From positions 1-42,401 of the forward strand of contig CALDSI010000242.1 in assembly GCA_937911395.1 (NCBI GenBank): DNA of 42,401 nucleotides, written 5' to 3'. This document shows positions 2,973 through 34,775 of the stretch, in pieces. The stretch is from an uncultured Labrenzia sp. Its GTDB lineage: Bacteria; Pseudomonadota; Alphaproteobacteria; Rhizobiales; Stappiaceae. Position 1 is the stretch's first letter; every line of letters begins with the position of its first letter. A model generated the notes under the pieces. It did no database searches, was not told the DNA's origin, and saw only the letters and a list, made by a program, of their open reading frames with translations. Both the position numbers and the translations under genes were made by a program.

Positions 2973-3054
2973 GTCAAACGCGTCCGTCTACTCGAGTTAA
3001 ACAACAGCGGAGCGATATGTCCGCCGGAAAACGTACATTTTTAAGGCCTTACCT

Positions 3055-3888
3055 TTAAGCGGCCCGGGCCCGCGCACAACCTGACGCAAGATCTGCGACC
3101 ACGTCGGCAACGGCTTGGACGGTCTTGTCCGTTGCCTTGCCGTCAGCGTCCAGGCTGTCCTTGACCGCATTCACCAGAACAGAGCCGACGACCACACCGT
3201 CGGCGTCCTTGCCGATGTCGGCAGCCTGATCCGCCGTTTTAACGCCAAAACCGACTGCAACCGGCAAGTCGGTGTGACCCTTGATGCGGTTGACAGCCGC
3301 TGTCACACGGCCGGTATCGGCAATCTGCGCACCGGTAATGCCAGTCACGGAAACGTAATAGACGAAACCGGAGGTATTGGCCAGAACTGCCGGTTGGCGT
3401 TTGGCATCGGTGGTGGGGGTGGCCAGGCGGATGAAGTTCAAACCGGCTTCGAGGGCCGGAATGCAGAACTCATCGTCGGCTTCTGCCGGCACATCAACAA
3501 TGATGAAGCCGTCAACACCGGCATCCTTGGCGACTTGAACGAATTTCTTCGGATCGCGCACATAGATCGGGTTGTAGTAGCCCATCAGAATGATCGGGGT
3601 GTCCTGATCCTGTTTGCGGAACGTCCGGACCATGTCCAATGTCTTGTCCATAGTGTGACCGGCGGCAAGTGCGCGCTGGTTGGCAAGCTGGATCGGAATA
3701 CCTTCCGCCATCGGATCTGAAAACGGCATGCCGAGTTCGATCACATCGGCTCCGGCTGCCGGCAGGGCATTGAGAATGGCTTGTGACGTTTCGAGATCGG
3801 GATCGCCCGCGGTTATGAACGTGACCAGAGCCGGCCTGCCTGCGTCAGCACATGCCTTGAACCGTCGATCGATACGCGTTTCCGTCAT
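3055..3888 (-). CDS. trpA: Tryptophan synthase alpha chain
   Basis: 277 aa [45 protein letters not shown]. Confidence 0.96.
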
Positions 3889-4467: not shown

Positions 4468-4689
4468 ATGGCCCACTCCCTATTCGAACCGGCTCCAATG
4501 CCGTTTCATGAGAAACTGATGCGGCGTATGCGCGACCTCAGCGGCCATGTGCCAGCGCGGATACCAAGGATCGCGGCCCGACTGACGGCGGCCGATCCGG
4601 GTTTGGTACGCCAGGCCAAGCGCCTGGACGCGCGTGGACAACAGTTGTTGCTGGAAGCGGTTTTCGACTTAGAAACGCCCGCAAAATAA
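4468..4689 (+). CDS. Small uncharacterised protein (73 aa)
   Basis: ATG at 4468 preceded by aaaaggagccgaaa (RBS-like); [73 protein letters not shown]; a strong hairpin follows immediately. Confidence 0.7.
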
Positions 4690-5956
4690 ATGCCGCGCAC
4701 CTTGGGGTGCGCGGCATATTTTTTAGCTGCTGTGTTGCGGCTAAAAGATCAAAGCCAAGCATCTCGCCGACTGCGAAAACATCCTTGTCGCCGCGGCCGC
4801 AAAGGTTCATGACAATGATCTGATCCTTGTCCATCTGCGGAGCCATCTTTGCAACCTGCGCCAGAGCATGAGCCGGTTCCAGCGCCGGGATGATACCTTC
4901 GACCCGTGTCAGCATCTGGAAGGCGGCCAAGGCTTCGTCATCCATGATCGGAATGTATTCGGCACGGCCGATCTCTTTCAGCCAGGAATGCTCCGGGCCG
5001 ATCCCGGGGTAATCGAGACCAGCTGAAATCGAGTGACCTTCGAGGATCTGGCCGTCGTCATCCTGCATCAGATACGTGCGATTGCCATGAAGGACGCCCG
5101 GCTTGCCGGCATTCAAGGATGCGCAGTGCTCTTCACCGGTCAGGCCACGGCCACCAGCTTCAACGCCCACGATCTTCACGTCCTTGTCGTCCAGGAATGG
5201 ATGGAACAGGCCGATCGCATTGGATCCGCCGCCAACAGCTGCCACGAGGACATCGGGAAGACGACCTTCGGCTTCGAGCATCTGCTCGCGCAGTTCCTTG
5301 CCGATCACGGACTGGAAGTCGCGCACCAATTCCGGATACGGGTGCGGACCAGCGGCCGTCCCGATCAGGTAATAGGTATCGTCAACGTTGGTGACCCAGT
5401 CGCGGAGCGCCTCGTTCATGGCGTCTTTAAGCGTGCCGGCACCTGCTGTGACCGGGACGATTTCCGCACCCAAAAGCTTCATTCGGAACACGTTCGGCTT
5501 TTGCCGCTCAACGTCGGTCGCACCCATGTAAACCACACAGGGCAGGCCAAAACGGGCACAAACGGTTGCAGTTGCAACGCCATGCTGCCCGGCACCGGTT
5601 TCTGCGATGATCCGGGTCTTGCCCATGCGCTTGGCAAGCAGGATCTGGCCGAGGCAGTTGTTGATCTTGTGGGAGCCGGTGTGATTCAGCTCATCCCGCT
5701 TGAAATAGATCTTCGCGCCGCCCAGCTCCTCGGTCAGCCGCTCTGCGAAATACAGCGGAGACGGACGTCCGGTGTAATGGGTGTTGAGACTTTTGACTTC
5801 GGCCAGAAAGTCCGGATCATTCTTGGCAGCCTTGTAGTGCTGTTCCAGATCCAGGATCAGCGGCATCAGGGTCTCGGCGACATACCGGCCACCAAAAATG
5901 CCGAAATGTCCGCGATCGTCCGGACCTGTCCGGATGCTGTTCGCCATATCGTTCAC
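4538..5956 (-). CDS. trpB: Tryptophan synthase beta chain; ORF has a C-terminal read-through extension of about 65 aa
   Basis: PLP motif [28 protein letters not shown]; homology-like region ends near GEMLGFDL at about 4740 and is followed by [25 protein letters not shown]..., not TrpB-like. Confidence 0.92.
4690..4717 (+). terminator. Rho-independent terminator of the small + strand gene
   Basis: ATGCCGCGCACC-TTGG-GGTGCGCGGCAT followed by ATTTTTT; 12-bp perfect stem. Confidence 0.85.
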
Positions 5957-22368: not shown

Positions 22369-24165
22369 TCAGTGGTTGTCGCGGGGCAGACCTTTGTGCG
22401 CGACGTCCTGATATTTGACCGCGGGCTCCAAAACCATGCCCTTGTCGAACTGGGCCACCATGCTCCGCTGGATTTCCTGCCAGGGCGTTTGGCTCTCGGC
22501 AACCTGGAACCCTCCGCTTTGTTCAAGCTGTGCGCGGCGCTGGGCCAGCTCTTCATCCGATATGAGAATGTCGGCTGATCCTGCTCTTAGATCGATACGA
22601 ACTTGATCCCCGGTATGCAACAACGCCAATCCGCCCATTGCTGCGGCCTCGGGAGCTGCATTCAGGATCGAGGGAGAACCTGATGTGCCCGACTGACGGC
22701 CATCGCCAATGCATGGCAGGGCCGTGATCCCCCTTTTGATAAGCGCTGCAGGTGGCTGCATGTTCACCACTTCAGCCCCGCCCGGATAACCGATTGGACC
22801 TGTTCCGCGAACGAACAGCATGCAGTTCTCATCGATCTCCAGGTCTGGATCGTCAATTCGGTGGTGATAATCTTCCGGTCCTTCGAAAACAATTGCGCGG
22901 CCTTCAAAAGCGTCCGGGTCGTTCGGATTGGAGAGGTAGCGGCTGCGGAACTCTTCAGAGATAACGCTGGTTTTCATGATAGCGCTGTCGAAGAGGTTGC
23001 CCTTCAAGTTCAAAAAACCGGCTTTTTCCAGCATCGGCGCGTCGAATGGTTTGATAACATCGGGCAGATCGGTGACAACGCCAGCGCAGTTTGCCTCAAT
23101 TGTTTTCCCGTTTGCTGTCAGCGCGCCGGGGTGCGGGAGCTGTTGATGTCGGAGCAGCTCGGCAACGACAGCCGGGACACCGCCTGCGTGGAAGTAATCT
23201 TCACCCAAATAGGCGCCGGCAGGCTGAAGATTGACCAGAAGCGGCACGTCATGCCCAATCTTCTGCCAATCGTCATTCGTGAGCTCGATCCCAAGATGCC
23301 GGGCGATGCCGTTCAAATGGATTGGCGCGTTAGTGGACCCGCCAATTGCCGAGTTCACGACGATGGCGTTTTCGAAGGCTTGCCGGGTCATGATGTCGGA
23401 CGGTTTCAGATCCTCATAAGCCATTTCCACGATCCGGCGGCCGGTTTCATAAGAAATGGCGCCGCGTTCACGGTAAGGTGCTGGAATAGCAGCCGCGCCC
23501 GGAAGCTGCATTCCAAGGGATTCGGCGAGGGAATTCATGGTCGTTGCCGTGCCCATCGTGTTGCAATAGCCAACCGAAGGGGCGGATGAGGCCACAAGAT
23601 CCATGAAGCCTTCGTAGTCGATGTCGCCTGCGGCGAGCATTTGCCGGGCTTTCCAGACGATGGTGCCCGAGCCTGTGCGCTCACCCTTGTGCCAGCCGTT
23701 GAGCATGGGACCAACAGACAAGGCGATTGCCGGAATGTTGACTGTCGCGGCAGCCATCAGACAGGCCGGTGTGGTCTTGTCACAGCCAATGGTTAGGACA
23801 ACCCCGTCAAGGGGGTATCCATGCAGCAATTCGACAAGACCGAGATAGGCAAGGTTCCGGTCGAGCGTTGCCGTTGGCCGCCGTCCGGTTTCCTGAATCG
23901 GATGGACGGGGAATTCAAATGCGATCCCGCCAGCGTCCCGAATGCCTTCGCGCACACGCTTGGCAAGTTCAAGGTGGTGGCGGTTGCACGGTGAGAGATC
24001 CGACCCTGTCTGGGCGATGCCGATGATCGGTTTTCCGGACTGCAGTTCTTCGCGGGTAATCCCAAAATTCAGATAGCGTTCGATGTAAAGCGCCGTCATC
24101 CCCGGGTTGTCTGGGTTGTTGAACCAAGCGGCAGAACGGAAATTCGGTGTCTTGGTATGTGTCAT
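22369..24165 (-). CDS. IlvD/Edd family dehydratase (sugar-acid dehydratase type likely)
   Basis: [79 protein letters not shown]; start MTHTKTPNF. Confidence 0.88.
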
Positions 24166-24249
24166 CGGCGCCTTACCCTCTGTTTCCCTCACGGCCGAGG
24201 GTGTGAGCCGATAAATACCCGCTCGAACAGGCTTGTAAAGCGCATTAGA

Positions 24250-25818
24250 TCAACTCGCAGGGATCAGGCGCCCTGCGTTTGTTTCCTGTTTCCGGTCCGC
24301 AACAGAATAACGCGCGAAAGCCCAGAGGACGGTGAGACTGACAAGGAACAGAACAGGGGCCGCCGACATAGGGAGCAACAGCGAACCACCGCAAACACCA
24401 CACAAGATCGACAGGCCCGACAAAAACCGTTGCGCGTGGGCGGCGAGCGCAGTGCGTCGCATGGCAAGGTCCTTAAGTGCAGGGAAAGCGCCGATGTCTT
24501 CGGTGTTACTTACAGCCAGGATCGCCGTTTGGGGCGCACTGTTATCTTCTGCGGCCTCATGGACAAATCTCAACTCCAAAGATGTCCGATCCTGTGACAA
24601 GGTCAGCACCAAAGGATGTTGATCGCCCGAAGAACGGTGTGCGGCTTCCGCTGCGCTTTCGCCGGGACGCGGATCTGCAACTGGCTCCAGGCCCAGCATG
24701 TTGGCAAGGGCTTCGCGTGTCTTTTCACTGTCCCCACTATAAAGCCAGGGCACGAGGCCTTCCCCGCGCAGCGCAAAGGCAGCAACACCGGCATCCTGAC
24801 GCAAGGTGCCTTCAAGGCCGAGAACACCAACAACCCGGCCGCCAACAGCAACCCTGAGAACCGTTTTGCCGTCTGCTTCTAGCGAGCGGGCGATGGCATC
24901 GGCGGTGAAGCTGTCGATCTTGTGCTTCTGCATCAGATTAGCCGTGCCGATCACGACACTTTGCCCGCCGAGCAAAGCAACTGCGCCCAGTCCAGGCGCG
25001 TGCTCACAGCGATCGGGCTGCTTGATGTCGACACGCCATTGTGCTGCCAGGTGGCGCAAAGCATCTGCGACAGGATGATCGCTCCCGCTTTCGGCCGATG
25101 CGGCAACGGCAAGCAGTGTTTTGGGTTCATTGTTGAAAGCCATGACATTGGTCACCGTCAGGTTTGGTCCCGACATGACAGCGGCCTTGTCGATGACGAT
25201 ATCGCGGGCTGACGCAACCTTGGCAAACGCAGCAGTCCCAAGACTCCGAACCCCGGCGGCCTTGGCCGCTTCCAGATAGACTTTGTCTGCAAAGGCGTTG
25301 ATGCCGTCAATGAGATAGGGCCAGGAGAGCACCAGGCAGACAACAGCCGCAACGGGTGCCTGTTCGGGATCCACGCCAAGCCAAAGGGCACCGCATAGGA
25401 AGCTGAGTTGGCTGGACGCGAAAGCTTCTTTGAGGCCGCTCCGCTCGCCCCGCGGCGGCAGGACCCAAACAGCGAGTGCGCGCAGGATCATCATGATGCT
25501 GGCGGAAAACGCAGGGGCATGGGGGGTGATCTCCCCGGCTGAAATGAATGGGAGGAAGGGATCTGCAATCAACAGGCCTCCACAAACAAGTGCCGTTGCA
25601 TAGTTCAAGCTCCGTCCAGCCGCAGCTTCCGGACAAAAAGCCAGACTTGTGGCTGAGAACAGAACCGACATGGCGCAGAGGCTGATGACGGACACTGTGT
25701 TTGGTTCTGAGCCAGAATGCGTTGATGCTACGGCGAGAAGAATTGATGCGATTGCGATCAGTGTCGCCCTGCCGATGACTTCCAGTGAAAGAGCCGGCTT
25801 TTTTGCGGCCTGTTGCAT
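24250..25818 (-). CDS. P1B-type ATPase-like membrane protein with degenerate catalytic motifs (putative pseudo-ATPase)
   Basis: CLVLSWPYLIDGINAFADKVYLEAAKAAGVRSLGTAAFAKVASARDIVIDKAAVMSGPNLTVTNV resembles the TM6-P-domain of P1B ATPases; also SGSDHPVADAL, LGAVALLGGQSVVIGTANLM. Start taken as MQQAAKKPALS at 25818, not the listed 26229. Confidence 0.7.
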   Translation of the reverse strand: MQQAAKKPALSLEVIGRATLIAIASILLAVASTHSGSEPNTVSVISLCAMSVLFSATSLAFCPEAAAGRSLNYATALVCGGLLIADPFLPFISAGEITPHAPAFSASIMMILRALAVWVLPPRGERSGLKEAFASSQLSFLCGALWLGVDPEQAPVAAVVCLVLSWPYLIDGINAFADKVYLEAAKAAGVRSLGTAAFAKVASARDIVIDKAAVMSGPNLTVTNVMAFNNEPKTLLAVAASAESGSDHPVADALRHLAAQWRVDIKQPDRCEHAPGLGAVALLGGQSVVIGTANLMQKHKIDSFTADAIARSLEADGKTVLRVAVGGRVVGVLGLEGTLRQDAGVAAFALRGEGLVPWLYSGDSEKTREALANMLGLEPVADPRPGESAAEAAHRSSGDQHPLVLTLSQDRTSLELRFVHEAAEDNSAPQTAILAVSNTEDIGAFPALKDLAMRRTALAAHAQRFLSGLSILCGVCGGSLLLPMSAAPVLFLVSLTVLWAFARYSVADRKQETNAGRLIPAS

Positions 25819-25930: not shown

Positions 25931-25980
25931 AGGGGACGGCTTTGCTCCTTGTCAGGAATATCAATGAATTGGCCGAGTGG

Positions 25981-26220
25981 ATTGAAATAAAATATCAGAC
26001 AGAATAATAAAAATAAGATGTTTTGATAGAAAAGGAAATATAAATAGAGAAAATAATAAATTATAAATAGTAGAGTGAATAAAGAAAAAGAAATAAGAAT
26101 GAAATTATTGATCAGAAAAGATAATATTATAGTGCAGAAAATCTTTTTAGTAATTCGAAATACAAAATATTTGCAATAGAATACAAATGAATACAATAAA
26201 TAGAAAAGTCTTAAAAACAG
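25981..26220. other. Extremely AT-rich intergenic segment
   Basis: Hand count 45 G+C in 240 nt (about 19%); no C on the + strand from 26001 to 26112. Confidence 0.9.
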
Positions 26221-26244
26221 CGGCGGCAAGAATTGCCGGGTCCG

Positions 26245-26406: not shown

Positions 26407-28179
26407 TCAGGCTGTTTCGAGATTGGCCCGAGACAGCAGTTCCATCGACGGCATCAGATTGAGAAGTTGCTGCGTGTATTCATGCTGCGGGTTCTCAAAC
26501 AGCTGATCGCAGTCCGCGACTTCGCAGAGTTCACCGTTGCGCATGACACCGATCCGGTTGCACATCTGCCGGATCACCGCGAGGTCGTGACTGATGAACA
26601 GCATGGTAAGGCCGAGTTCTTCTTGCAAATCCTTCAGAAGATTGAGGATCTGAGCCTGAATCGAGACGTCCAATGCGGAGGTCGGTTCGTCGCAAATCAG
26701 GAAGCGCGGCCGGGTCGCGAGGGCCCGGGCGATCGAAATTCTCTGGCGCTGACCGCCGGAAAACTCGTGCGGAAACTTTAGGCCAGCAGCCGCACCAAGA
26801 CCCACATGATCCAGCAGATCGTCAACGATCTGGCGCACTTCGGAATTGCTGGAGGCCAGTTTGTGGAACTTGATCGGCTCGGCGATGATATCCTTTACCC
26901 GCATACGCGCATTGAGCGACGAATAGGGATCCTGGAAGATCATCTGCATCTGGCGGCGCATCGCCATCGTTTCGCGTTGGTTCTTCAGCGAAGTCAATTC
27001 TGTATTGCCGAAGAGGATTGAACCTCCACTCGGGTGATAAAGCCCCGTGACCACTCGCGCGACGGTGGATTTGCCGGACCCGCTTTCGCCAACAAGACCA
27101 AAAGTCTCGCCCTCGTTGATGTCGAAGCTTACCTTCTTGACCGCGTGAAAATACTCTCGTTGCGATGGGAAGACAGATCCTTTGGTCTCAAATCGCATTT
27201 CCAGGTCACGGATTTGGACAAGCGGTCCATTCACCTTTTCATATTCTCGGGACTTGCCGAGCCAGTGGGTGGAGATGTCGATGTGTTTTTGAGGCGTGCC
27301 GGCCTTTTCGATGTAGTTGACCACCGGAAAGCGTTCAACTTTGATATCAGGCCGGGGTACGGCAGATATCAGGCTTTGTGTATAGGGGTGGTTTGGAGCG
27401 CCGAGGACCTGATTGGTTTCACCATACTCCACCAGTTCACCGTGGTACATCACCGCAACGTGATCGGTAATGTCCGCAATCACGCCCATGTCGTGGGTGA
27501 TCACGAGCATTGCAACGTTCCGCTCTTCACAGAGCTTTTTCATCAGCTCCAGAATTTGCGCCTGAATAGACACATCGAGCGCCGTGGTCGGCTCGTCAGC
27601 AATCACCAATTCAGGCTCGGCGCAAAGAGCGAGTGCGATCACCACGCGCTGGCGCATGCCGCCGGAGAATTGATGCGGATATTGTTTGATCCGCTCAGCC
27701 GGATTTGGAATACCGACTGCATCGATCAATTCGATCGCTCGCTGCTGTGCTTCCTTGCCGGAAAGCGGAAGGTGTGTGCGGATGGTCTCCACCAGTTGTG
27801 CTTCAACAGTCTGCAGAGGATCCAATGAAGTCAGTGGATCCTGGAAGATCATACCGATCTTACGTCCCCTCAGTTGACGCATTTTCTTGTAGGGCAGTTC
27901 ATCGATCCGCTGACCGTGCAGATAGACTTGGCCGCCTGCAATGTGACCAGGTTCTTGGAGAAGGCCGATGACGGCATTGCCAACAGTGGACTTGCCGGCG
28001 CCGGATTCTCCGACAACGCCGAGAATTTTACCGGCTTCTACTTTCAGGCTCACCTCGTCAACCGCGACAAAAACAGATTTGCGGCCCGGGAACTCGACCC
28101 GAAGGTCTTTGATATCTAGGACGTTCACAGGAAGTACCTCAGCGCAGTTTTGGGTTGAGCGCGTCACGCAGCCAATCAC
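26407..28179 (-). CDS. Dipeptide/oligopeptide ABC transporter, fused dual ATP-binding protein (GsiA-like)
   Basis: Two Walker A ([24 protein letters not shown]), two signature motifs ([18 protein letters not shown]). Confidence 0.93.
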
Positions 28180-29089
28180 CCAACAAGTTTACGTTCAAGA
28201 CCAGCAATGCCAGCGCAATGCCGGGGAAAATAGCGATCCACCATTCGCCTGAATAGAGGAAATCGTTGCCAATGGCGATCAGAGTTCCAAGAGATGGTTG
28301 TGTAGGCGGCATGCCGACACCAAGGAACGATAGGCTGGATTCCGTGACGATTGCCAGCGCCAGGTTGATCGTTGCAATAACCAACACCGGACCCATAACA
28401 TTCGGCAGTATGTGGCGCACCATTATGATGACCGAGGGAATGCCGATCACGCGTGCCGCCTGAACATATTCCTTGTTCTTTTCCACCATCGTCGACCCGC
28501 GAACCGTCCGGGCGTACTGCACCCAGAACGACAGCGCGAGTGCTACGATCAGGATGTAGAAGGCGAAAACTTCCCGGTCGATTCCGCCGAAGATACCCGC
28601 CGCAACACCGTCAATCAGAAGCGCGATCAAAATGGCCGGGAATGTCAGCTGGACATCGGCGATCCGCATGATGATCGCATCGACACGCCCACCCATATAG
28701 CCGGCGACGAGGCCGGCGGTGATGCCGATGATGGCGGCTGCGATGACAGAACAAAAACCGACAATGAGCGAAATTCGCATGCCGTAGAAAATGCCGGACA
28801 ACAGATCCCGGCCCTGATCGTCGGTGCCAAGCAGGAAGCGGGGGTCGGCAAACTCCATCCAAACCGGTGGAACACGGGCATCCAGAATGGAGATCGTCGC
28901 CAGATCAAACGGATTGTGGGGGGCGACCCAGGGCGCGAGGAATGCGACCAGGAACAGGAGGAGCGTCATGACGGCAGCAACCACGGTGACCTTCGAGCGG
29001 AGGAAGGAGTGGAACAGGTCGCTGTCGATGATGCGTGCAAGGCGGCCTTTCGGCTCGCTGTTCGATGTGGAGACATCAGCCATGGTCAA
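28139..29089 (-). CDS. Dipeptide ABC transporter permease (DppC-like)
   Basis: FLLGTDDQGRDLLSGIFYGMRISLIVGF, EYVQAARVIGIPSVIIMVRHILPNVMGP. Confidence 0.93.
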   Translation of the reverse strand: MTMADVSTSNSEPKGRLARIIDSDLFHSFLRSKVTVVAAVMTLLLFLVAFLAPWVAPHNPFDLATISILDARVPPVWMEFADPRFLLGTDDQGRDLLSGIFYGMRISLIVGFCSVIAAAIIGITAGLVAGYMGGRVDAIIMRIADVQLTFPAILIALLIDGVAAGIFGGIDREVFAFYILIVALALSFWVQYARTVRGSTMVEKNKEYVQAARVIGIPSVIIMVRHILPNVMGPVLVIATINLALAIVTESSLSFLGVGMPPTQPSLGTLIAIGNDFLYSGEWWIAIFPGIALALLVLNVNLLGDWLRDALNPKLR

Positions 29090-29095
29090 GTCTCC

Positions 29096-30070
29096 TTATG
29101 GCCGTCCGACCCGCAGACGCGGATCGATGAAGAAATAGAGAATGTCGACGATGAAATTGATCGCGACGAACAGGAAAGCGGTCAGCAACAGATAGGCCGA
29201 CATGATCGGAATATCGACGTTCTGTACCGCCTGCAGGAACATCAGACCCATGCCCGGCCACTGGAAGACGGTTTCCGTAATGGTGGCAAAGGCGATGATC
29301 GACCCGAGCTGAAGACCGGTGATCGTGATCACGGGGACCATGGTGTTCTTCAGCGCATGCCGGAAATGGACCAGCCGGTCCGGCAAACCGCGCGCGCGGG
29401 CAAACTTGATATAGTCGGTCCGGATGACTTCCAGCATTTCTGCCCGGATCAGGCGCATGATCAGTGTCATCTGGTACATGCCGAGCGTGACTGCTGGCAG
29501 GATCAGTGCTTTCAGACCGGAGGCTGTCAGGAAGCCCGTTGTCCACCAGGAGCCGACCTGGACGACATCGCCGCGGCCGAAGCTTGGCAGCCACTGCAGC
29601 GTGACCGAGAACAGGAAGATCAACAAGATCCCGATGAAGAAGGTGGGCAGGGATATGCCCACAAGGGATACCGAGAGAAACAGTTTTGATATGGCCGATT
29701 CCCGGTTAAGCCCGGCGTAAATACCCATGGGTATGCCGACAATCAGCGCAAATACAAAGGAGGCGAAACTGAGCTCAAGCGTCGCCGGGATGCGTTTGGC
29801 GAACAGTTCGGAAACGGGTTGTTTGAACTGATAGGAGGTGCCGAAGTCGAACTGCACCGCATTGCCGATGAAACGGGCAAACTGTACCGGGATTGGATCG
29901 TTCAAGCCCAAACGTTCGCGCAGCGCTTCACGTTCTTCGATGGATGTCTCGATGCCGACCATCTGGTTGATCGGATCTCCGACGAAACGGAACATGGTGA
30001 AGGCAAGAAGCGCCACCACCAACATGACAATCATCGCTTGAAGCAAACGACGTGTTGCAAAACCTATCAT
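29096..30070 (-). CDS. Dipeptide ABC transporter permease (DppB-like)
   Basis: RRLLQAMIVMLVVALLAFTMFRFVGDP, DYIKFARARGLPDRLVHFRHALKNTMVPVITITGLQLG. Confidence 0.93.
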   Translation of the reverse strand: MIGFATRRLLQAMIVMLVVALLAFTMFRFVGDPINQMVGIETSIEEREALRERLGLNDPIPVQFARFIGNAVQFDFGTSYQFKQPVSELFAKRIPATLELSFASFVFALIVGIPMGIYAGLNRESAISKLFLSVSLVGISLPTFFIGILLIFLFSVTLQWLPSFGRGDVVQVGSWWTTGFLTASGLKALILPAVTLGMYQMTLIMRLIRAEMLEVIRTDYIKFARARGLPDRLVHFRHALKNTMVPVITITGLQLGSIIAFATITETVFQWPGMGLMFLQAVQNVDIPIMSAYLLLTAFLFVAINFIVDILYFFIDPRLRVGRP

Positions 30071-30097
30071 TTCGGCTCTTTACGTTTTCAAGAAAAG

Positions 30098-30122
30098 GCG
30101 CCCCCGGCGGAACCGGGGGCGC
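30098..30122 (-). terminator. Intercistronic GC-rich stem-loop between SBP and permease genes
   Basis: GCGCCCCCGG-CGGAA-CCGGGGGCGC; minus-strand 3' flank CTTTTCTTG. Confidence 0.7.
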
Positions 30123-30143
30123 TTCTATTTTTGTTAGGACCGC

Positions 30144-31727
30144 TTAGTTCTTGGTGACGAAGCGGAAGTGGAACTGGTTATCCGCACGCTGGACGAGCTC
30201 AACGTCGTCCGCAACGCCCCATGCCAGACCCTGCTGGTGCAACGGGATGTAGTAGGCATTGTCGTGGGAGATCTTGTAGGCTTCCGCGATCATGTCGTCG
30301 CGTTTCGCCGGATCGTTTTCAACCAGGATCTGTTGAGTCAGCTCATCGATTTTCGCATCGCACCAGCCACCGTTGTTGAACGGAGAGCCTTTGCCAGCTT
30401 CGTCGCGGCAGTTCATCAGGTTGGACAGAACGTTGAAGCTGTCGAAGGAACCCGGGGTCCAGCCAAGCAGGTAGAACGATGTGTCGTAACCACCAGAGGC
30501 CAGGATCTTGGCAAAGTACTTCGCTTTCGGCTGGGCGTTCAAGTCAACCTTGACGCCAACGCGGGCGAGCATCGCAGCAACAGCCTGACAGATGGCTTCG
30601 TCGTTGACATAGCGATCGTTCGGGCAGTCCATGCCGACAGAGAACCCGTCCGGGTACCCGGCTTCTGCAAGAAGGTCCATTGCAGCCTGCGGGTCATACG
30701 GATAGCGCTCGAACTCTTCCGACTTGGAGAACAGGAACGGAGAGATCATGATTGCGGACGGTGTTGCAAGGTTCCGCATCACTTTCTGCTTGATCGCTTC
30801 AATGTTGATGGCCTGGTAGAACGCTTTGCGAACCTTGGCATCCTTGAACGGGTTTTTGCCCTTCACGTCGGAATAGAGCAGCTCATCGCGCATTTGGTCC
30901 ATGCCGAGGAAGATCGTGCGCAGTTCAGGACCAGTCAGGGCGACAGTGCCGTCATTGTCGTTGATGCGTTTGATGTCCTGGATGGGGATCGGATAAACCA
31001 TATCCATCTCGCCGGACAGAAGCGCTGCAACGCGGGTTGCATCAGATCCGATCGGAGTGAACTCAACGGTGGTCAGGTTGTGAGCCGCTGTATCCCACCA
31101 GCCGTCGTTTTTCTCGTAGACGGTTTTCACACCCGGCTCGTGGCTGACCAGCTTGAATGGGCCGGTGCCGTTCGCGTTCAGCGCCGCATAGTTTGGTGTG
31201 GTGTCGGATGCAGAGGTGACTTTGACCGCGTCGTTGGCCTCGGTCCACTCCTTGTCCATGATGTAGAACGTGTCCCACTCATAGTGCAGGATCGGGTTCG
31301 GCCCGGTCAGAACGAAGTCGACGGTATAGTCGTCAACGATCTCGACTTTGGCATCGCCCGGAACGCGGGTTGTCAGGTCGGAACCTTCGGAACGGACACG
31401 GTCAACGGAAAAGGCGACGTCTTCAGCTGTAAAGTCGTTGCCATTGTGGAACTTCACGCCTTGGCGAAGGTAAAAACGCCAGCGGTTCGGCTCGACAACT
31501 TCCCAACGCTCGGCAAGGCTCGGCTCGATCTGCAGGTCTGCACCGCGGCGGGTCAGACCTTCATAAGTGTTGCCTAGGGCGGACAGCGTGAAGGTTTCGT
31601 TGAGGCTGTACGGGTCAAGGGCGTTCAATGTCCCCTGAAACGCAAACTTCAATGTTTCCGCCTGCGCAGCGGATGCCACGCCAAACGTTGCTACAGCAGC
31701 AGCAATCAATTTGGTTTTGGTATTCAT
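30144..31727 (-). CDS. Dipeptide ABC transporter substrate-binding protein (SBP family 5)
   Basis: MNTKTKLIAAAVATFGVASAAQA signal peptide; LNALDPYSLNETFTLSALGNTYEGLTRR, WRFYLRQGVKFHNGNDFTAEDVAFS. Confidence 0.93.
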   Translation of the reverse strand: MNTKTKLIAAAVATFGVASAAQAETLKFAFQGTLNALDPYSLNETFTLSALGNTYEGLTRRGADLQIEPSLAERWEVVEPNRWRFYLRQGVKFHNGNDFTAEDVAFSVDRVRSEGSDLTTRVPGDAKVEIVDDYTVDFVLTGPNPILHYEWDTFYIMDKEWTEANDAVKVTSASDTTPNYAALNANGTGPFKLVSHEPGVKTVYEKNDGWWDTAAHNLTTVEFTPIGSDATRVAALLSGEMDMVYPIPIQDIKRINDNDGTVALTGPELRTIFLGMDQMRDELLYSDVKGKNPFKDAKVRKAFYQAINIEAIKQKVMRNLATPSAIMISPFLFSKSEEFERYPYDPQAAMDLLAEAGYPDGFSVGMDCPNDRYVNDEAICQAVAAMLARVGVKVDLNAQPKAKYFAKILASGGYDTSFYLLGWTPGSFDSFNVLSNLMNCRDEAGKGSPFNNGGWCDAKIDELTQQILVENDPAKRDDMIAEAYKISHDNAYYIPLHQQGLAWGVADDVELVQRADNQFHFRFVTKN

Positions 31728-31785
31728 AGTCCCCTCTTCAGTGCTATTCAGCGCTTTTGTGAACTCGGTGTTGTTCAATTTGTTC

Positions 31786-31807
31786 TTTACGACCGGAAAG
31801 TCGTAAA
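31786..31807. promoter_or_regulatory. Perfect 8-bp inverted repeat upstream of the SBP gene
   Basis: TTTACGAC-CGGAAA-GTCGTAAA, about 60 nt upstream of the SBP start. Confidence 0.45.
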
Positions 31808-31859
31808 TTGTGCCAATTATGACAGCGTTGGCGGAATGCATCAAATCGGATTTCTCCGA

Positions 31860-33035: not shown

Positions 33036-34775
33036 TTACACGGGGTCTTTTGCCCCCGTTTCCCCGGGCAGCAATAAACCATTCATCTGCTTAAGTGCAA
33101 AGGCTTGTAATGGTTTTTCCTTGCCGCGTACGCTGACGTCGTACAGCGCTTCGTCAGGTGCCGTAGCGCGAGCCGCGTCGATAACATCTTTAGAAACAAC
33201 AAGGAAGCTGTTCCGAGATTTGTTTTCAGTTTCCAGCCGGCTAGCTGTGTTGACGACGTCGCCAAGCGCGGTGAGCCCACCTTCAGATTTGCCCGATCCG
33301 GCGGCGCCAATACGTCCGAGGATGGCCTGGCCGAGATGGAGGCCGACACCGAGACGGATCGTGTCACGGAACTGCGGGCCTTTTTCTGTGTTGAGGGCTT
33401 CCATGACCTGCTCAATGCCTCGGCAGGCCTTTAAAGCTTGGCGCGCACCGGTCTTAGCACCCGTTTCCATACCGAAGATGGCCATGATGCCATCACCGAT
33501 GAACTTGTCGACATAACCGCCTTTGGCCCGGATCACGGCTGAAACCCGGTCAAGGTACTGGTTCAGGAGAAAGACGACGTCGTAGGCGAGTTGCGCCTCG
33601 GTCATGCTGGTGAAGTTCCGAAGGTCGACGAACATGACCACAACATCCTGCTCGACCCCCCAATAATAAGCATCCTGAACATGGTCCTGCCGCACCATGT
33701 TTGCTTTCACCGGCACCAAGGGCTGAACTTCAAGGTTTGCCGCTGGCCGGATCTGGCAAGCCAACCGGACATCCTCCGGAACTCCAATCCGCTTCAAGAC
33801 GGTCGTTTCAGCCGGGCTTGGCTGTGACAAACCATCCAGTCCGTTTAAAACTTTGACACGGCAGGTCGAGCAGCGTGCACGGCCGCCGCAAACAGAAGCG
33901 ACGGGAATTCCGTTCATGCGGCTGATCTCAAGAAGAGATGCACCCGGTTGTGCACGAACGGTAAGGCCGCCTGGATAGGAAATCGAAATTCCGCTGGACA
34001 CACGGCTCGCGAGATACCGGATGACAATGACAAACAGGCTCAAGAATATCAGGCCGAATACAATGGCTCTGATATTGCCGGTCTGCGTATAGAGCCACGC
34101 CCACTGATCTTTAGTAACCGTGACTGTCACGTCCTTTGCCAGAGCCAGCCGCCGGGCGCCCTCGACAAACCCCCAAAGCGCCATCACGGGCCATGCGATA
34201 GCGGCGGCCAGGGCGATGTACTTCATCCGGTGGTAGAACGGGTAGAGCCGCAGCCAGAAATGCAGCCCGATCATCGCGTGGGTCCAAACCACCAGCAAAA
34301 GGATGGATTGCATGACGGCATTTTGCGGCCAGAGGATCGTCAGCATCTGATGGTAGTTCGGGATAAAGCCGAATTCCTTCGCCAGCCCCATCGTTGTGAT
34401 GACATGTGGGATGAGTGTCCAGGGGATGTAAAGCCCAAGTACAAGCTGAGCGAACTCCCAGGGCGGCATGCGCAAAGTGCGTCTCTTGGATGTTCGCCAC
34501 AGCGCCAGCGCGACATGGGTGAGGGCTGCTGAGATCAACACGGTTTCGCCGATCGGCCCGCGCCAGATCCAGTAGTGCCACAGGGACATTTTCTCCATCG
34601 CATTGACGGAAATGATGCCCATCGCGTGGTTGGAAAAGTGACTGAGGCAAAACAGGAAAAGGACCATTCCGCTCCACAGGCGCAGCCGTTGGCGCCAGTT
34701 GCCGTGCCCGGGGTTGGGCCATGCCGCATCCGCAGCGGTTGCGGGCACTTTTGATGGAATGGCGGGGTCGGTCAC
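33036..34775 (-). CDS. Membrane adenylate cyclase: His-rich TM anchor + 2Fe-2S ferredoxin domain + class III cyclase
   Basis: TM anchor with many His (SHFSNHAMG, WTHAMIGLHFWLRLYPFYH); CGGRARCSTCRV...LACQI (C-x5-C-x2-C...C); VVVMFVDLRNFTSMTE, VDKFIGDGIMAIFG, ALGDVVNTASRLE. Confidence 0.9.
   Translation of the reverse strand: MTDPAIPSKVPATAADAAWPNPGHGNWRQRLRLWSGMVLFLFCLSHFSNHAMGIISVNAMEKMSLWHYWIWRGPIGETVLISAALTHVALALWRTSKRRTLRMPPWEFAQLVLGLYIPWTLIPHVITTMGLAKEFGFIPNYHQMLTILWPQNAVMQSILLLVVWTHAMIGLHFWLRLYPFYHRMKYIALAAAIAWPVMALWGFVEGARRLALAKDVTVTVTKDQWAWLYTQTGNIRAIVFGLIFLSLFVIVIRYLASRVSSGISISYPGGLTVRAQPGASLLEISRMNGIPVASVCGGRARCSTCRVKVLNGLDGLSQPSPAETTVLKRIGVPEDVRLACQIRPAANLEVQPLVPVKANMVRQDHVQDAYYWGVEQDVVVMFVDLRNFTSMTEAQLAYDVVFLLNQYLDRVSAVIRAKGGYVDKFIGDGIMAIFGMETGAKTGARQALKACRGIEQVMEALNTEKGPQFRDTIRLGVGLHLGQAILGRIGAAGSGKSEGGLTALGDVVNTASRLETENKSRNSFLVVSKDVIDAARATAPDEALYDVSVRGKEKPLQAFALKQMNGLLLPGETGAKDPV

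Follow-up and report, generated by a model that had tools for sequence, protein, structure and literature searches.

A conserved P1B-derived pseudoenzyme with a hyperconserved N domain at a CopA locus in Roseibium

Results

The window, a stretch of 42,401 nucleotides from a draft genome of 4.86 Mb, carries on its minus strand (to which the parts of this gene and its two conserved neighbors described below also belong) an open reading frame of 522 codons plus stop, located at 24250 to 25818. We classified it as a pseudo-P1B-ATPase gene based on the open frame, profile matches and predicted fold. The frame continues upstream as far as a TTG at 26229, and this extension is very probably spurious since it is AT-rich and finds no alignment in orthologs. 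An upstream tract of some 280 bp (window positions 25960-26240) has a GC content of about 20–25%, compared with about 57% for the genome; this tract is seen again in the closest relatives (loci L003-L006), and most others show it more weakly or not at all. A scan for consensus promoters returned none on the strand of the pseudo-pump gene. The downstream neighbor, at 22369 to 24192, encodes an IlvD/Edd-family dehydratase, as determined by domain matches and locus comparison, and a peptide-type ABC operon with a binding protein, two permeases and a fused ATPase lies upstream at 26407 to 31844. Co-transcription with this operon was considered and rejected: the ABC ATPase and pseudo-pump genes stand about 590 bp apart in the window, and the former is followed by a GC-rich inverted repeat.

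A family search recovered the pseudo form in 37 of 45 genomes of the marine genus Roseibium. Six of these 37 carry divergent versions (29–36% identity), yet at the same locus, and the frame is open in 36. The one broken copy (locus L067 of genome G092, about positions 3010-3430) loses its frame near residue 402 and continues its C-terminal part in a different frame, owing either to a genuine mutation or to a sequencing error. Gene order in the loci that we read was ArgE-like protein, binding protein, two permeases, ABC ATPase, pseudo-pump and IlvD/Edd dehydratase; in one divergent ortholog (L031) the close-by match was on the dehydratase side alone. Among the eight genomes without the gene, the dehydratase locus was readable in seven, while in G022 the contig ends there. 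Three of these seven slots (L069, L072 and L073) are occupied by an NAD-dependent, GalE-like epimerase on the opposite strand and the other four are too small for the gene, with gaps of roughly 40–550 bp. No remnants of the pseudo-pump gene were found in species without it. The gene is therefore dispensable, as seven Roseibium genomes do without it. When 398 genomes of the order were searched with a profile (E ≤ 1e-50), the matches were Roseibium members, followed by intact CopA proteins of genera from the same family, and nothing else. Spread by mobile elements was rejected based on this confinement to one genus of the order and on the lack of any match among plasmid records.

Homology of the 522-residue protein to P1B-ATPases is far above chance. 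The NCBIfam P1B model TIGR01525 matched with E = 4e-24, at a score of 85 bits that does not reach the curated family cut-off of 346, and the ZntA-type model PRK11033 matched with E = 1e-23. Pfam detected a partial HAD hydrolase domain alone (residues 232–382, E = 8e-7), and the best sequence match among solved structures was Legionella CopA (3rfu, E = 3e-20, residues 137–385). The AlphaFold2 model (mean pLDDT 81, pTM 0.67) shows six membrane helices in the N-terminal part, with M4 broken at W166-P167, a cytosolic part in P-N-P order and two C-terminal helices. The N-terminal set, MA to M4 (residues 12–188), is encoded at 25255 to 25785 and agrees with hydropathy, whereas M5 and M6 (residues 444–515) are encoded at 24274 to 24489. 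When the model was searched with Foldseek, the top matches were CopA 4bbj (E = 3e-16), CopA 3rfu and the zinc pump 4umw; global TM-scores were moderate (0.53) and rmsd was large, as expected because this is a multidomain protein with one domain missing. A separate model of a divergent ortholog agreed in layout but was less confident (pLDDT 72), and a viral fold library matched nothing but distant P-type ATPases. The fold of the P and N domains and the P1B helix layout are thus both present, and the P-type fold suspected from sequence in the preliminary description was found.

The same description had reported an intact frame of 522 codons in which P1B signature motifs are replaced. Reading the minus strand from 25818 to 24250, we confirmed the frame, the motifs SWPYLIDG, VIDKAAVMSG, LYSGDSEKT, SDHPVADAL and GLGAVALLGG and the missing GDGxND; the list was correct as far as it went and overlooked that the actuator domain is lost altogether. 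At the place of this domain, which bears TGE in CopA, the protein has a loop of about nine residues (120–128; 25435 to 25461, from Pfam, model and alignment) that joins the helices 101–119 and 129–149 in the AlphaFold2 model, and PF00122 gave no Pfam match even at an E-value limit of 10. The N-terminal metal-binding (HMA) domain is missing too. In M4, W166-P167-Y168 (25315 to 25323) stands instead of the copper-binding CPC and the helix is broken there; among 38 orthologs W and P are found in all 38, and the third residue is H, Y, F, Q, S, N or C. The phosphorylation motif DKTGT is replaced by D210-KAAV (25177 to 25191), and the orthologs follow the pattern D-(K/R/N)-x-(A/T/S)-(V/L/I), with aspartate in 38/38 and neither the glycine nor the last threonine in any. 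Not every reported substitution is a fixed trait, however. The 38-sequence alignment showed W-P to be fixed and DKTGT to be lost everywhere, whereas the SGD at the TGD position (residues 361–363; 24730 to 24738), correctly seen in the window gene, varies among orthologs as SGD, TGD, TND or SGA. Where the GDGxND hinge belongs, the alignment places a TLSQDRTSLE region (approximately 24583 to 24612), and the Mg-binding hinge aspartates of HAD enzymes are missing. Similarly, the copper residues YN (M5) and MxxSS (M6) are missing although the C-terminal helices are there. In short, a TGE actuator domain, an M4–M6 metal site, DKTGT and GDGxND were all looked for as features of a functional pump and none was found. 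In the known P-type cycle, phosphorylation and dephosphorylation depend on the A domain and Mg ligands. With both missing, P-type phosphorylation and dephosphorylation should be impossible, and it is well supported, as judged from these residues, that the protein would not pump. The appropriate label is P1B-derived pseudoenzyme, not P1B-ATPase.

Sister genera of the same family have a full-length P1B-ATPase in the slot of the pseudo-pump. It carries TGE, CPC, DKTGT, TGD and GDGxND, and also the YN and MxxSS that mark the P1B-1 copper class; in one of these proteins, L052, the domains detected were HMA, E1-E2 ATPase and hydrolase. Orthologs with intact motifs, raised earlier as an argument against a pseudoenzyme, do not occur within the genus, and the intact CopA of the sister-genus slot probably represents the ancestral type, leaving the pseudoenzyme assignment unaffected. 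No cueR-type metal regulator was recognized by eye beside the syntenic CopA, where the slots contained a GntR-like regulator, a LysR or nothing that could be clearly assigned. In the tree, the pseudo group falls beside the syntenic CopA with a support of 77/30, and other placements were not rejected (p-AU 0.43 and 0.33). Given this weak support, descent from the syntenic CopA rests chiefly on position and similarity.

The N domain (residues 216–335; 24814 to 25173) is the most conserved part of the protein by alignment and invariance counts. In 31 main-clade pseudo sequences, 73 of its 120 positions are invariant, in comparison with 23 of 120 in 13 CopA sequences, and counts in all other domains run the opposite way. 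Mean pairwise identities for pseudo and CopA sequences, respectively, were 0.42 and 0.58 in MA-M3, 0.66 and 0.86 in M4, 0.65 and 0.81 in P1, 0.87 and 0.55 in N, 0.62 and 0.60 in P2 and 0.65 and 0.80 in M5-M6; the two sets are unequal in depth and number, which alone is unable to reverse the order of domains. Constraint is thus inverted: CopA conserves its membrane and P domains and lets N vary, whereas the pseudo form conserves N. This inversion suggests that the functional part of the protein is its N domain. The N domains of the two groups are closely alike in sequence, as shown by the aligned segments LKIDRFTADSLRRNFEADGKT in CopA L052 and LKIDSFTADAIARSLEADGKT in most pseudo forms.

Several of the conserved positions correspond to the nucleotide site of the ATP7B N domain. 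E1064 and H1069 are among the N-domain residues of this site. By ortholog alignment their equivalents are E243 and H248-P249 (25072 to 25092); histidine is found at the H1069 position in 36 of 38 orthologs and glutamate in two, and position 243 is Q, not E, in syntenic CopA. NMR signals in ATP7B put ATP near G1099, G1101, G1149 and N1150 (PMC3203118). The first two correspond to the invariant G276-x-G278 (24985 to 24993) and the latter two to G291-T292 (24943 to 24948), as aligned with the residues of PMC3203118. Equivalents of E1064, G1099, G1101 and G1149 are invariant in 38 orthologs, and the N1150 position is T in 31, N in six and S in one. As the ATP7B mutants N1150A and H1069Q alter ATP affinity little (PMC3203118), ATP binding by the pseudo N domain stays plausible.

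Pairwise dN/dS in 16 close pairs was 0.09–0.26, with all but one value below 0.2 and none near 1, so the gene is not decaying. With all pairs taken together, synonymous sites were saturated evenly along the gene. Two regional comparisons gave 0.11 and 0.13 for the pseudo-pump, 0.10–0.11 for the ArgE-like neighbor and 0.01–0.07 for the others. The protein is under purifying selection, which is laxer than that on the ABC neighbors. Within the ABC operon, the ATPase gene (window positions 26407-28179) has a synonymous divergence to its nearest relatives of about 0.77–0.79, compared with 0.15–0.47 for its neighbors, a difference that hints at local recombination. Overall, the initial suggestion of a repurposed pseudoenzyme instead of recent decay is borne out by genus-wide open frames, dN/dS, fixed motif loss and constraint on the N domain.

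Discussion

We propose that a CopA-type (P1B-1) copper pump occupied this locus in the family ancestor, and that in the Roseibium lineage both the actuator and the N-terminal metal-binding domain would have disappeared, together with the copper ligands of M4, M5 and M6 and every catalytic motif save the acceptor aspartate. Judging from sequence, the P-type phosphorylation cycle and pumping would thereby have been abolished. The protein appears to have been retained, anchored in the membrane, with an N domain that keeps its fold and most ATP-contact residues. This domain most likely binds adenine nucleotide and, via its conserved face, the protein may regulate or scaffold a membrane or metabolic partner. 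Overall, the gene probably encodes a former CopA that is unable to pump and is retained as a regulator or scaffold, anchored in the membrane and binding nucleotide. Weighing against this reading are the weakly supported tree placement, T at the N1150 position of most orthologs, E at the H1069 position of two, Q at position 243 of syntenic CopA and the dispensability of the gene. We put forward more tentatively a narrower version, in which the resident copper pump stayed in place and became a nucleotide sensor, bound to the membrane and devoid of catalysis, by which a partner is regulated; such a sensor would imply a class of P-type pseudo-ATPases with the A domain lost and the N domain hyperconserved.

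The strongest competitor holds that the N domain is a protein-binding surface only and that the protein is a scaffold or modulator of an active P1B pump, as a hetero-oligomer, or of another membrane complex, with no nucleotide sensing. Constraint on the N domain indeed far exceeds the ATP-contact residues, and canonical P1B pumps are encoded elsewhere in every gene-bearing genome that we examined. We nevertheless find this version rather unlikely, as the nucleotide-contact residues are themselves among the invariant positions and no candidate partner emerged: the neighbors are common to intact CopA loci and therefore do not name one. Transport by an unusual mechanism, such as a passive path or an ATP-driven step using D210, is quite improbable. 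The aspartate is invariant and all eight core helices are retained, but the protein is without A domain, Mg-binding hinge aspartates and copper ligands, has a tryptophan at the first ligand position and is least conserved in its membrane part. It is highly improbable that we are looking at a slowly decaying CopA pseudogene, even though the gene was lost in at least seven genomes, is frameshifted in one (G092) and evolves faster than its ABC neighbors; frames that are open in 36 of 37 genomes and the low dN/dS over synonymous divergence up to saturation contradict it. Finally, residues 301–345 are near-identical genus-wide in a protein that is about 55% identical as a whole, but constraint by an overlapping gene or RNA can be dismissed, as synonymous sites there are equally saturated (pS 0.66–0.69) and no Rfam match was found.

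The inactive regulator or scaffold that we favor resembles CopA, both in solved structures (3rfu/4bbj) and in the syntenic proteins of sister Stappiaceae-type genera, in its MA-M6 layout, P/N fold, N-domain sequence and acceptor aspartate, and it shares the locus with the syntenic CopA. In contrast to CopA, it has no HMA, actuator domain, CPC, YN, MxxSS, DKTGT or GDGxND and its conservation pattern is reversed. General P1B homology (PRK11033, 4umw) relates it to ZntA-type Zn/Cd P1B-ATPases, yet the probable syntenic ancestor is of the copper class and none of the Zn-site residues are kept. KdpB, the catalytic subunit of KdpFABC, is another P-type protein that works with partner proteins, but it retains the A domain and catalytic motifs, and its model is reached weakly by only 2 of 31 pseudo-pump orthologs; we found no positive evidence for the KdpB-like partnership suggested earlier. 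PINA, the truncated pineal form of ATP7B, is similarly a P1B-derived product without N-terminal parts. However, it arises from an intact gene by alternative transcription and keeps DKTGT, whereas the pseudo-pump has a gene of its own in which the motif loss is fixed.

Pseudokinases and pseudoproteases are well-known classes. In a partial search of the literature we found no P-type pseudoenzymes or P-type ATPases lacking the A domain, and likewise no description of a conserved pseudo-P-type ATPase of traceable ancestry. As the presumed ancestral type is still found intact in the sister-genus slot, the route from pump to non-pump is open to stepwise study, and one can test directly which functions a P-type N domain may have once catalysis is gone.

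Other features of the window

Two further observations were made in the window. At 4538-5956, the TrpB frame runs into a C-terminal tail of unusual kind, and TrpA comes only after a gap of 650 bp; the cause may be a frameshift, an inserted segment or faulty assembly. At 33036-34775, a single protein combines membrane helices with two domains, one a 2Fe-2S ferredoxin and the other an adenylate/guanylate cyclase.
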